64,000 bases of DNA from Asterochloris sp. CNOR1 (taxonomy: Eukaryota; Chlorophyta; Trebouxiophyceae; Trebouxiales; Trebouxiaceae), in the NCBI GenBank assembly GCA_963969365.1, contig OZ017757.1, forward strand, positions 310,001 through 374,000, read 5' to 3'. Position 1 is the first letter of the stretch. The number at the start of each line of letters is the position of its first letter. Made by a program: the position numbers and the translations under genes. A model generated the notes under the pieces. That model saw only the letters and a list, made by a program, of their open reading frames with translations. It was not told where the DNA came from and did no database searches. Shown here in pieces: positions 31,197-61,782 of this stretch.

Positions 31197-34100
31197 TCAG
31201 TCGTCAAAGGTAATTTTCGAACTCTTCTGTGTGAGGTCAACGTCTTTGAAGTGGGCGCCTGCAGTGCAAACAGTTTCTTGTCTGTTGTTTTAGCTGCCAA
31301 TGGTGCTAGCCGCCTTCTGAGATTGTGAGTGCCTCATTCTGAGAGCAGCATGATAGCTTGAGTGCCAGAGGACTCAGCACTTGGTGAAGCAGTGCAATAT
31401 GTGAGCAGATGCTGGGATGGTAGGTCAGCAGATGCAATGCCGTCAGCAGAGCCCCTTTTGACGCGTTTGCAGACCAGCATGGGCTGTCTTACCATACAGG
31501 GCGCTCTCCTTCTTCTTGACCGTCGTGCCAAAGGCCATTAACTCCTTGGGCACAACCTGGCCTGCCTCCTTCAGCACATTGATCAGCTCTCCGGCGCGGG
31601 CCTTGTCTGTGGCGCCGCTGAAGAATGTGTGGGAGACACCTGCATATTAGAGGCGGCAGCAGGATCAGAGGGCAAGGAAGATCGAGGAGATGCTGACATT
31701 AACCCAATAAAATCAAAAGAAGCCCAAAATATGCTCAAGCATTATCAAGGCTCTCAAGCCAGCCTGAGGACAGTGTCAGTCAGGTGACTTGAGCTTGAGA
31801 TATGCATATTGATGGAGGGAAGGCATGCAAGGCGCAGGCCAGGGCAGCCATATCAGACCAGGTATGGCACACCCCTGGATGCAGCCAGAACAAAGTATTG
31901 GCACACAGAAGGCAGGGTGACCCCTCAAAGGATTCAAAATTCTGCCAAACAGTGGGCAGGAGCGTCATGCTGGGTCACAGGGCTCTGTTTGGCAACTTTC
32001 ATACCAGAATCATGCCACCTGGCTGAACAATATAGGAAGTAATGGGTTGCTGCAGTCCCTCATTCTGGAGAGCAAACAGCATGCCCGGCTGCCCCATCCA
32101 CCCTCCCTTTCTGCACACTAAAGCAGCTGGTGATGCCTGCCTCACATGCATTCCAGTCCAGAACGAACCGCTTTCAATGCCCACCTGTTCTCTCAGCGTG
32201 CCCTGTGCAGTGCCCTCACCAGCACTGCAAAAAGCAGTCAAGCACTTACTGGATCACAGGGCCACCCAGTTCTTACCTGTCTTTCCAGCACGCCCTGTGC
32301 GGCCGATGCGATGCACGTAGTCCTCAGTCGTCAGCGGGAACGAGTAGTTGATGACTGCCTCCACATCGGGGATATCCAGTCCACGAGCCGCCACATCAGT
32401 AGCCACAAGCAAGGGGATCTCGCCGCTCTTGAACTGCTCAACCGCGCGCGTGCGCTGCTGCTGAGAGGCGTCACCATGGACGGCCACTGCCTGCAGGCAC
32501 ACAAGAGGGGTGTTAAAAAGATGCCCCAACGCATTACAAAGTCGCTCTGCTTTTGTTTATATCCTTGGCGACGTGCACAGCAACGGCCAGCAGCCAGGGG
32601 AGAGCAACAATGAGCTTGGCAAGGCAGGGAAGCTTGCAGAGCCTTAGCGTGCTGCCTTTGAAATGCTTAAGTGAGCAAAGTGACGTCTTTGCAGCCATGG
32701 AAGAGGGATGTAGAGCAGTGTTACAAAGAAAATCCAGAGCCTCGACTGGCACCTCTGGGAGAGTAGTTTGCATAAGTGATAGCGGCATACTTGGTGCATT
32801 CTGGCAGCCAGCATGATATCGATCTAGTCCAGTGCCTTTTGCAGTCATTGCTCAGGGCAGCCGCGGCTAGCAGAACTGATGGGTGAGTGGCGTTCAAGTC
32901 AGGTGCAACTTTCTGAGGCTGCAGGTGCCCACTAAACGGAGAATGCACACTCGCAGCCAAAGGCTGAGTCTGTATTGAGACCTTCACACACAAAGACCTT
33001 ACCTTCCAGCCCTTCTTCTGCAGCAGCGCCTCCACCCTGGCAGCCTCCTTCTTGTACAGCACGAAGATGATGACCCTGTTCTTACGGCTGCTGTGGTACT
33101 TGTGGAGCAGCTCATCCAGTCGCGAATCCCTCTGGCGGGGGTCGATCACCTCCACAACCTGCAGCGGGGAGAGGCCGCAATGAGGGCAGGCACTGTACTT
33201 CGAGGAGCAGAACAGTTCCCCTTGTGTCGATTGCCCCACCAATCTGCCACAGACAAGGGGCATAGTATGCAATGGCACAAGTCAAATCCCTCAGTTGCAG
33301 GTCAGTCAACCGCACAATTTGCAGCGGAGAGGGAGCACAACAAGGCAGAACAGGCGGCGTGGGCAGTGTATTTTGAAGTCTGATTCAGACTGGCTGAAGA
33401 CAACTGCCTCAGTAACTTGCAAGGAAGGACACCTGAGGGACGCTGTAGCTGCAGGGGAGGACATAGCGGCACTGCACTGCAGCACACCAAACTTAGGTGC
33501 AGCTGGTTGGCGGAGGCGCACCTGCGTGACGCTGTGGCTGGCGGACAGGTCCTGGCTGCCAATGGTGACCTTGACGGGGTGCGACAAGAACTCGGACGCC
33601 AGCTTCTGGATGCTGGAGGGCCATGTGGCAGAAAACATGAGGGTGTGCCTGTCGGCTCGTGTTTGCTGAGCAATGGCCCTGCAGGCAGACAGCATGAGTG
33701 CATTAACACATCGAGGATGCAGCATGAGCACAGAATGAGCACAAAGCTGGCCAGGTGAGTTCAGGCAATCAAGACTTCCTGTTGCAAACTGCGCTCACAG
33801 TACGGCCAAACCAGCACACGTCGCATGTGGCCCATGCAGTTGGTTGTTTGGGGCCACGAGGTGCTGTTCCATCTGATGCAGAATCCATCATGGGGCATCT
33901 TGAATTGCCACGTATTTGCACCGCAGCTTGAATCAAAGCGATGCTCCATTGGGTTGCAAAGCTGCTGTCCATCATGACAGGTCCACCAACTCACACACTG
34001 CTGCCTGGCTTACCTGATGTGGGGCTCAAATCCCAGGTCTAGCATCCTGTCAGCCTCGTCCAGTACCAGGTAGGTGATGCCTGCCAGGCGGCAGGCCTTG

Positions 34101-61300: not shown

Positions 61301-61782
61301 TCATGCCGCCTGGCATTGCACCCAAGCCATATCCTTGGGGTGCAGGCCCGCCTGGGAAGCCTGCAGGGGGAGAGGGACTGATGAGGCAGTGCAGATGTTG
61401 CCTGCCCTGCACTCAGGCAGGGCCAGCACGAAGCAGCCATGCAGTGGCGCTTGTATTGAAGAGCACTGCGTGTGGAGTGCATCACCTGGCCTGGGAGGGG
61501 CGAAGCCCCCTGGTCGGGGCGCCTGCTGGCCCCCGCCAAAGCCGCGAGCGGCAGCAGGCTGCTGCAGTGGCTGCCCTGCACCGGGCTGCGATGGACCTGC
61601 AGGAACAGCAGCAGCTGAAAGGCAGGAGGCCTCAGTGAACCACGCAGGGTGCCAAGGCCAGTGCCAAATCTATCAGAGGGCCCTTGGCGCGGCCAGATGC
61701 TGGCGTGCAGAACTGGCGCTGTGACATGTGCACCTGGCGCCAACCCCTCTGGCCTGCGATTACTGGGTTGCTGGCTGGCCAT
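49334..61782 (-). CDS. SEC24: SEC24, COPII coat cargo-binding subunit
   Basis: Twenty-three exons in phase: 61782-61734, 61596-61486, 61360-61289, 60439-60296, 60112-59943, 59426-59213, 58830-58672, 58036-57900, 57465-57305, 56823-56670, 56110-55898, 55490-55362, 54921-54771, 54347-54197, 53771-53623, 53238-53135, 52720-52599, 52268-52121, 51726-51606, 51308-51128, 50721-50592, 49996-49843, 49449-49334; 1,079 residues. Residues 1-306 are Pro/Gly/Gln-rich. The zinc finger is C388, C391, C410, C413. The trunk (vWA-like) starts at [12 protein letters not shown], and beta-sandwich and helical parts follow ([21 protein letters not shown]). The gelsolin-like end has [14 protein letters not shown] and finishes with VLIEDRSSQ and FLAFLHK. 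It binds cargo and Sec23 on ER exit vesicles. The introns after exons 17 and 20 are GC-AG. The exon 13 acceptor could also be at 54912. Confidence 0.94.
49700..49890. repeat. Duplicated donor of SEC24 exon 22
   Basis: GATGACGAAGCATGTCTGCC (from 49851, inside the exon beside its donor) is matched by GATGACAAAGCAGGTCTGCC near 49704 in the downstream intron, about 146 bp away. Both are preceded by a CCTCAC-like donor complement. Confidence 0.75.
49903..50098. repeat. Duplicated 5' part of SEC24 exon 22
   Basis: GCGTTGATACGCTGAGAGAG (49903 onwards) and GGCAGGCTCCACAGACAGCG in the exon recur near 50018 as GCGTTGCCTAATTGAGAGAG and GGCGGGCTCCACTGATAACA. The copy lies in the preceding intron, 115 bp away. 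Confidence 0.75.
50488..50645. repeat. Duplicated donor end of SEC24 exon 21
   Basis: GTCTGGCCTGATGGAGCGCC (exon 21, near 50604) is matched near 50498 by TTTAGGCCGGATAGAGCGAC, and flanks also align (CCTATCCAGAGACAC against CCAATCCAGGGGCAC). The copy is in the intron. Confidence 0.75.
50700..51035. repeat. About four copies of the SEC24 exon 21 acceptor region
   Basis: GGCATCTGTACCCTACAGGC followed by GGCAGCA (exon 21 acceptor, near 50710) is echoed near 50809 (AGCATCTGCATTTAGCAGGC then GGCAGCA), near 50920 (ACTCTGCCCTCTGCAGGCAG) and near 50997 (AGCATCTGTGCCATGCAGCG). The copies lie in the upstream intron; each keeps or nearly keeps an AG acceptor on the minus strand. Confidence 0.7.
55246..55390. 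repeat. Duplicated donor of SEC24 exon 12
   Basis: GACTCACCGAGCTATTTGCG followed by GCAAAGGAG (exon 12 donor) is matched 99 bp away in the intron by CACTTACCGAGCTGTTGGCG followed by GCAAAGAAA. Both copies retain a perfect GT donor on the minus strand. Confidence 0.85.
55800..55915. repeat. Duplicated donor of SEC24 exon 11
   Basis: CTGACCCACCATCAACTGTG (exon 11 donor, from 55890) recurs as TTGACCCACCATCAGCTGTA about 84 bp away in the downstream intron. Both encode QLM followed by a GTGGGTC donor. Confidence 0.7.
56549..56713. repeat. Duplicated donor end of SEC24 exon 10
   Basis: GACTCACCATGTACTCTGCA followed by GGCGCCACATACTCC (exon 10 end) is matched 113 bp away by GACTCACCGTGTAATCTAGC followed by GGCGCCCCGTAATCT. 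The copy preserves the GTGAGTC donor but has in-frame stops. Confidence 0.85.
57781..57895. repeat. Tandem repeat beside SEC24 exon 8 donor
   Basis: TGCTGGGATGCAGGGCGCTG (57781) and TGCTGGGATGCAAGGCGCTG (57848) start two units of about 65 bp, each followed by TATGACACCATTTGCTCAT or TATGGCACCATCTGCTCAT. They lie in the intron just beyond the exon 8 donor (57900). Confidence 0.8.

Follow-up and report, generated by a model that had tools for sequence, protein, structure and literature searches.

Do the introns of a green alga carry decayed copies of the exon-intron junctions beside them and, if so, how did these copies arise? The question is raised by a 64,000-bp stretch of the Asterochloris sp. 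CNOR1 genome (contig OZ017757.1, positions 310,001-374,000; hereafter, the window), in which genes for SEC24, a NOL10-like protein, a DEAD helicase, a FAD oxidoreductase and an F-box/SKIP5-like protein had been noted to have degraded second copies of exon ends and splice sites in adjacent introns. The original prediction ascribed them to short tandem duplication, genome-wide and still continuing, that lengthens introns. Our analysis shows that about a quarter of the predicted introns examined contain a degraded version of one of their own splice junctions. These copies are probably short tandem duplications across junctions, whose inner copy degenerated within the intron.

The genome comprises 56.4 Mb in 21 contigs, with C1-C18 being 2.0-4.5 Mb each. 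The main sample of 244 kb consisted of the window (C12:310001-374000) and 18 nuclear 10-kb stretches; five further stretches (50 kb) were held out of model building. Gene models, including the predicted introns, were obtained with a hidden Markov model trained on the 244 kb. Left out before counting were low-complexity segments, L001, which is part of the window, and L020 (C20:100001-110000), an organelle-like sample from a 110-kb contig, whose 10 kb are densely filled with direct and inverted repeats and have a GC content of 0.447. The score threshold was 72 for the main pair count and the age counts in the main sample, 68 for pair classes, geometry and held-out ages, 64 for the side-specific analysis of flanks and amounts, and 56 for tests of an intron's own junctions. 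Exon-exon and mixed pairs do not enter the age and junction counts.

The NOL10-like, DEAD helicase and FAD oxidoreductase genes were named by Pfam, which found no F-box in the F-box/SKIP5-like gene model; the SKIP5 name was taken from the original prediction. Exon numbers were not matched to those used there, as the gene models are different. For the SEC24 protein predicted here, the best among the 120 matches listed are those of Myrmecia bisecta (57% identity) and Trebouxia (56%), and none of the listed matches is a near-identical relative. No related SEC24 loci were found in viral contigs.

Gapped local alignment of the 244 kb, coding sequence included, yields 195 local direct pairs with a spacing of 15-700 bp (score at least 72), against 2 pairs with a spacing of 1000-1685 bp in the same sequence and 1 in block-shuffled sequence. 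Chance is thus excluded by the two controls, shuffling having been proposed originally as a check. For the held-out 50 kb the corresponding numbers are 18, 0 and 0. At a score of at least 68 there are 102 exon-intron, 92 noncoding, 30 exon-exon and 4 mixed pairs. According to exact-word counts, direct repeats are over-represented at 12-250 bp, while inverted ones are near background and have no comparable excess. The word-match excess declines from a lag of 12 to about 300 bp, being for 8-mers 2.5-fold at 12-60, 2.4-fold at 60-120, 1.7-fold at 120-200, 1.2-fold at 200-300 and 1.05-fold at 300-400 bp (complement control, 0.76).

The repeat excess is not specific to the five genes or their coordinates: all but one of the 18 nuclear stretches outside the window contain at least two noncoding or exon-intron pairs, and the exception contains a single pair. 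The spacings of 162 non-overlapping events add up to 26.4 kb, or 14% of the 186 kb of noncoding sequence, with the caveat that spacing may exceed the true unit and that older events are undetectable; recognisable copies make up 8.4% of noncoding sequence. An excess of single-base identity at short lags persists after the detected pairs are masked. Judging by the word-match ratios, further hidden duplication would account for part of it at most, and we make no claim here.

A copy of the intron's own donor or acceptor junction was found in 86 of 342 predicted introns at a score of at least 56 (held-out stretches included, introns shorter than 150 bp left out), against 2.3 for another intron's junction; with the threshold raised to 64, 68 and 0 remain. 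Both the genome-wide scale and the lengthening of introns, as originally predicted, are supported by these counts together with the pair counts above. Of the 98 junctions tested in the five named genes, 28 have a match in the intron that they border, again at a score of at least 56 (SEC24 9, NOL10 11, DEAD helicase 4, oxidoreductase 2, F-box/SKIP5-like 2). One junction drawn at random from the same genes matches in 5 of 98, from a pool in which the junctions of the intron itself were included. The exons used in this comparison come from the hidden Markov models and, for SEC24, from tblastn, after adjustment by hand. The claim of at least a dozen junction copies in these genes is borne out, mostly at the places named. 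The copies and two related features are as follows (spacing in bp).

49692-49725, minus strand: SEC24 donor junction, decayed copy; source 49837-49871, spacing 145, identity 0.86
50477-50530, minus strand: SEC24 donor junction, decayed copy; source 50585-50638, spacing 108, identity 0.70
50910-50944, minus strand: SEC24 acceptor junction, decayed copy; source 50703-50736, spacing 207, identity 0.77
53935-53984, minus strand: SEC24 acceptor junction, decayed copy; source 53727-53777, spacing 208, identity 0.78
55248-55289, minus strand: SEC24 donor junction, decayed copy; source 55347-55388, spacing 99, identity 0.83
55806-55823, minus strand: SEC24 donor junction, short copy (18 bp); source 55890-55907, spacing 84, identity 0.94
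56550-56599, minus strand: SEC24 donor junction, decayed copy; source 56663-56712, spacing 113, identity 0.72
57023-57075, minus strand: SEC24 acceptor junction, decayed copy; source 56784-56836, spacing 239, identity 0.68
58528-58590, minus strand: SEC24 donor junction, decayed copy; source 58670-58731, spacing 142, identity 0.75
42998-43036, plus strand: NOL10 exon end, decayed copy; source 42900-42938, spacing 98, identity 0.82
43410-43443, plus strand: NOL10 acceptor junction, decayed copy; source 43649-43681, spacing 239, identity 0.82
44045-44077, plus strand: NOL10 exon end, decayed copy; source 43826-43859, spacing 219, identity 0.88
44952-45002, plus strand: NOL10 donor junction, weak copy; source 44555-44606, spacing 397, identity 0.71, score 63
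45167-45323, plus strand: NOL10 intron, complete head-to-tail 78-bp duplication; identity 0.89, among the best preserved
45679-45702, plus strand: NOL10 exon start, weak copy (23 bp); source 46068-46090, spacing 389, identity 0.88, score 59
46302-46339, plus strand: NOL10 donor junction, decayed copy; source 46222-46259, spacing 80, identity 0.82
46604-46661, plus strand: NOL10 acceptor junction and exon start, decayed copy; source 46815-46872, spacing 211, identity 0.78
47181-47231, plus strand: NOL10 exon end, decayed copy; source 46975-47025, spacing 206, identity 0.76
47900-47955, plus strand: NOL10 acceptor junction, weak copy; source 48044-48099, spacing 144, identity 0.68, score 62
48289-48338, plus strand: NOL10 donor junction, weak copy; source 48162-48211, spacing 127, identity 0.70, score 65
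48695-48745, plus strand: NOL10 acceptor junction, decayed copy; source 48793-48843, spacing 98, identity 0.78
33285-33331, minus strand: helicase acceptor junction, decayed copy; source 33125-33171, spacing 160, identity 0.72
33423-33470, minus strand: helicase donor junction, decayed copy; source 33512-33559, spacing 89, identity 0.71
34431-34461, minus strand: helicase acceptor junction, weak copy; source 34145-34175, spacing 286, identity 0.77, score 61
35810-36120, minus strand: helicase array of units of about 85 bp, from exon end across the acceptor into the intron; source 35810-35870 paired with copy 35979-36040
27429-27533, minus strand: oxidoreductase acceptor junction and intron, copy; source 27266-27370, spacing 163, identity 0.85
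30345-30402, minus strand: oxidoreductase acceptor junction, decayed copy; source 30212-30269, spacing 133, identity 0.74
18330-18379, minus strand: F-box/SKIP5-like donor junction, weak copy; source 18432-18480, spacing 102, identity 0.72, score 64
18900-18947, minus strand: F-box/SKIP5-like acceptor junction, decayed copy; source 18692-18739, spacing 208, identity 0.85

The NOL10 exon end at 47022-47040 seems to have a GC donor (AATGCAG|GCAGGC), a judgement made by eye from the protein frame only.

The arrangement of the copies is that expected of tandem units. The exonic copy crosses the junction facing the intronic copy in 55 of 85 internal-exon pairs (16 of the 101 exon-intron pairs, at terminal exons, were left out) and the far junction in 5, a bias that is partly forced where spacing is less than exon length; at a spacing of 200-600 bp, where it is least forced, the facing junction is crossed in 23 of 36 pairs and the far one in 2. 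Held-out stretches give 8 and 1 of 10, respectively. Such geometry is accounted for directly, since a tandem unit laid over a junction must produce it. Moreover, closely spaced copies mostly abut: below 80 bp the median aligned length is about equal to the spacing (coding pairs included), and 12 of 21 pairs at 40-80 bp, exon-exon pairs not counted, align over at least three quarters of their spacing. Where the copies lie further apart, the unit can be recognised only in part. The range of 80-160 bp, given originally as the most frequent spacing, does cover 44 of the 101 exon-intron pairs, but the spread is broad, with a median of 177 bp.

Beyond the aligned core, homology on the intron side is positive in all four spacing classes (+1.6 to +6.8, with standard errors of 1.5-3.1, each weak alone), and on the exon side it is about zero. 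The first flank test gave +1.1 (standard error 0.4) for exon-intron pairs and +0.5 (0.5) for noncoding ones. As a possible breakpoint motif, TGCAG lies within 6 bp of 15 of 93 unit edges, compared with 8.4% at random, with no enrichment within 10 bp.

According to the proposed scenario, tandem duplications of about 40-300 bp would have arisen throughout this trebouxiophycean genome, most likely by staggered breaks that were filled in and then closed by end joining. When a unit covered an exon-intron junction, splicing would have stayed on the outer, original site, the unaltered site presumably being the spliced one, and the coding sequence would have remained intact. The extra exon end and splice site would be trapped in the intron, making it longer by one unit, and would then decay. 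Pairs with wide spacing would also be tandem units, most of whose length has decayed.

Several points weigh against this scenario. The gene models are predictions of the hidden Markov model, SEC24 alone having been checked against relatives (tblastn), and the presence of copies was analysed in a single genome. At a spacing of at least 180 bp the core is only about 50 bp long, and pooled flank homology of exon-intron pairs is +0.1 at 180-260 bp and -1.8 at 260-400 bp, while simulated tandem events aged 0.3-0.45 retain +6; this weaker flank homology is the chief argument against a wholly tandem origin of the wide-spaced pairs, some of which may be spaced copies. The simulation (random tandem duplications, neutral introns, constrained exons; units within exons and units with more than one junction left out) also fails to fit flank homology and the exon-intron ratio together. 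This joint misfit is the reason why we call tandem duplication probable, and leave some weight to spaced capture and a little to targeting of junctions.

Spaced capture would mean that double-strand break repair placed in the intron a non-tandem copy of some 50 bp, taken from a source no more than a few hundred bases away. It would suit both a core that stays near 50 bp while spacing rises to 300 bp and the missing pooled flank homology at 180-400 bp; moreover, rice insertions of 10-1000 bp are described, in the available text of PMC7407515, as tandem, partly tandem or copied from up to 200 bp away, non-tandem copies being included. Still, captured sources should come from anywhere in the exon, whereas the wide-spaced pairs mostly cross the facing junction (see above), and inverted copies show no excess. 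Tandem events simulated with a very high age (0.45-0.6) likewise give cores of about 57 bp with flanks of +1.7. In the test of source position for nearby capture, the facing junction is crossed and flank homology at wide spacing is faint. We consider spaced capture rather unlikely.

Pairs are also concentrated at junctions: 104 exon-intron pairs were seen against 73 expected under random placement, and 70 intron-intron pairs against 107. A process directed to junctions, such as one involving R-loops or splicing intermediates, would produce this pattern. Most of the excess, however, is explained by detection, since junction events are favoured in the simulation (54% detected, against 34% of noncoding events). 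The simulated ratio of exon-intron to noncoding pairs is 0.62 for all ages, 0.75 without events below 0.08 and 1.01 without those below 0.15. The observed 102 to 92 is reached only with the last cut-off, under which 1% of noncoding matches should have an identity of 85-90%, compared with 7 of 40 observed; inclusion of the omitted multi-junction units would add exon-intron pairs. Under this model, concentration at junctions appears to be largely, perhaps not wholly, a detection effect, with a modest real excess possible, and the clustering would need little or no junction-directed process, a process for which we see only a small probability.

The inner copies could also be functional alternative exons or maintained decoy sites. 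They had been described as often keeping a perfect GT or AG, and this is true of acceptors (AG in 31 of 35) more than of donors (GT in 17 of 26), other dinucleotides being kept in 60%. However, 16 of 24 decoys preserve the complete acceptor pentamer, and TGCAG away from junctions is kept about equally (241 of 399 places). TGCAG/CTGCA occurs 14.9 times per kb of the sampled genome, a sevenfold excess over the expected value of about 2.1, and the strong acceptor consensus is TGCAG|G. Since the motif is over-represented and equally kept off junctions, there is no sign of selection on the decoys, a reading that was rejected; the part of the original prediction that concerns decoy splice sites fails on the same comparison. 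Aligned coding parts of the copies contain a stop in 7 of 46 cases and an indel in 13 of 46, so that the statement that many copies have in-frame stops was too strong. A functional role of the inner copies seems very improbable.

Chance, local composition and an interspersed repeat or introner family can be dismissed: the TGCAG excess could raise similarity, but at equal sensitivity the far-spacing and shuffled controls gave 2 and 1 pairs against 195, similar sequence was not seen at many other places, and neither BLAST at E 1e-5 (no match between any two of the 24 sampled pieces) nor a whole-genome search with five copies (none in a repeat family, one also matching a paralogous gene fragment) gave any sign of the interspersed family named originally as an alternative, both tests being blind to the divergence typical here and two copy searches missing a known local partner. 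Repeat-induced point mutation of the duplicates was ruled out as well, as there is no strong C to T excess: the copies have 407 transitions and 357 transversions, with balanced per-base rates (C to T 0.122, T to C 0.127, G to A 0.108, A to G 0.120).

Intron gain, raised tentatively in the original prediction, has left no signature: in 0 of 414 introns do the sequences around donor and acceptor resemble each other (score at least 48), against 0.45 in permutations. As the two ends of one intron are thus no more similar than ends taken from different introns, the idea that these duplications create introns is not supported.

The duplications are mostly old. For matches of at least 40 bp and a spacing of 40-400 bp, identity of at least 0.9 is found in 0 of 40 noncoding, 0 of 60 exon-intron and 0 of 9 held-out pairs (0 of 109 altogether), while a constant rate predicts 24% of noncoding and 20% of exon-intron pairs (probabilities 1.4e-5 and 2.3e-6, respectively). 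A process that is still continuing, as had been supposed, is therefore not supported. Recent longer units are rare, not absent. Just outside the limits there are one identical 39-bp unit and one 475-bp pair at 0.90; with matches from 20 bp upward, identity reaches 0.9 in 5 of 65 noncoding and 3 of 82 exon-intron pairs, and Tandem Repeats Finder reports 13 noncoding or mixed arrays with a period of at least 40 bp, 2 of them at 90% or more. Some young units may have been collapsed in assembly.

One oxidoreductase junction may have been duplicated more than once. A partial dispersed paralog of this gene, which may be a pseudogene, lies on C15 (L026, C15:2097501-2102500, at 2304-3278) and matches the window at 26237-27006 (73.6%) and 27118-27324 (82.2%). 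The homology stops about 35 bp beyond the acceptor at 27289, and the intron further on is not shared. The window pair (27266-27370 and 27429-27533) has a spacing of 163 bp, and the pairs of the C15 fragment, with nearly the same start, have spacings of 105 and 208 bp. The simplest reading of these alignments is that separate duplications would have recurred at one junction in the two paralogs after their split, although mutual identities of the four copies (0.78-0.84) are not decisive on independent origin. Some junctions may thus be duplication hot spots.

The junction copies are best read as belonging to the known phenomenon of short tandem duplication. Vaughn and Bennetzen (2014) and Messer and Arndt (2007) reportedly found short tandem duplications among short insertions (rice, human). 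The available parts of PMC7407515 and PMC8355091 present them as a common class of short insertions in these species, ascribed to staggered-break repair; like the copies studied here they are direct, local and tens to hundreds of bases long, but the events described there are recent, while ours are old, recognised as decayed copies and often anchored in an exon. In the potato RdRp gene, according to the excerpted text of PMC4974935, a tandem duplication spans an intron-exon boundary, with an 83-bp duplication in the first intron. As here, the unit crosses an acceptor junction, but that gene gained a new intron, whereas our copies remain inside the old one and no gain is seen. The type of mutation is also that of intron-gain duplication as outlined in the accessible portion of a review (PMC3443670), but the in-register likeness of donor and acceptor surroundings by which such gain is recognised is not seen here.

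Doublets and close direct repeats (Thomas 2004; Achaz 2001; as summarised in the part of PMC2671141 at hand) are short local duplications too, but are not tied there to splice junctions. Introners, as characterised in the available text of PMC9860276, share the genome-wide effect on introns, but no shared family sequence was found here. The literature searched, as far as its available text extends, yielded no study that surveys introns for decayed copies of their junctions.

Exon-anchored copies can serve as dated fossils of duplication: because the coding copy roughly preserves the original letters, a polarised clock and a substitution spectrum can be read from each of the decayed partners. 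With about a quarter of introns holding such a fossil, intron growth by tandem duplication becomes countable in one genome, and its apparent slowdown becomes a question that can be asked. A warning also follows, as copies can appear to cluster at junctions largely because exon-anchored ones remain recognisable longer. It is conceivable, though doubtful, that a long-past period of frequent tandem duplication of 40-300 bp, since nearly stopped for units of at least 40 bp, supplied a sizeable share of intron length; in that case the mutational regime of the lineage, not transposons, would set intron size.

Repeats occur within coding sequence as well. The F-box-like gene model has a 156-bp coding repeat in three copies (21667-22127), and a large coiled-coil-looking gene model (50-12722, minus strand) has many in-frame tandem repeats. 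For exon-exon pairs up to 400 bp at all loci, spacing is divisible by 3 in 24 of 29. The window also contains a dispersed coding family at 13484-17233, 24030-25532, 39001-39932 (minus strand) and 62324-63598, with 71-80% DNA identity in the main alignments; DUF4379 treble-clef zinc-finger repeats are present in the one copy that was scanned, near 62-63 kb.

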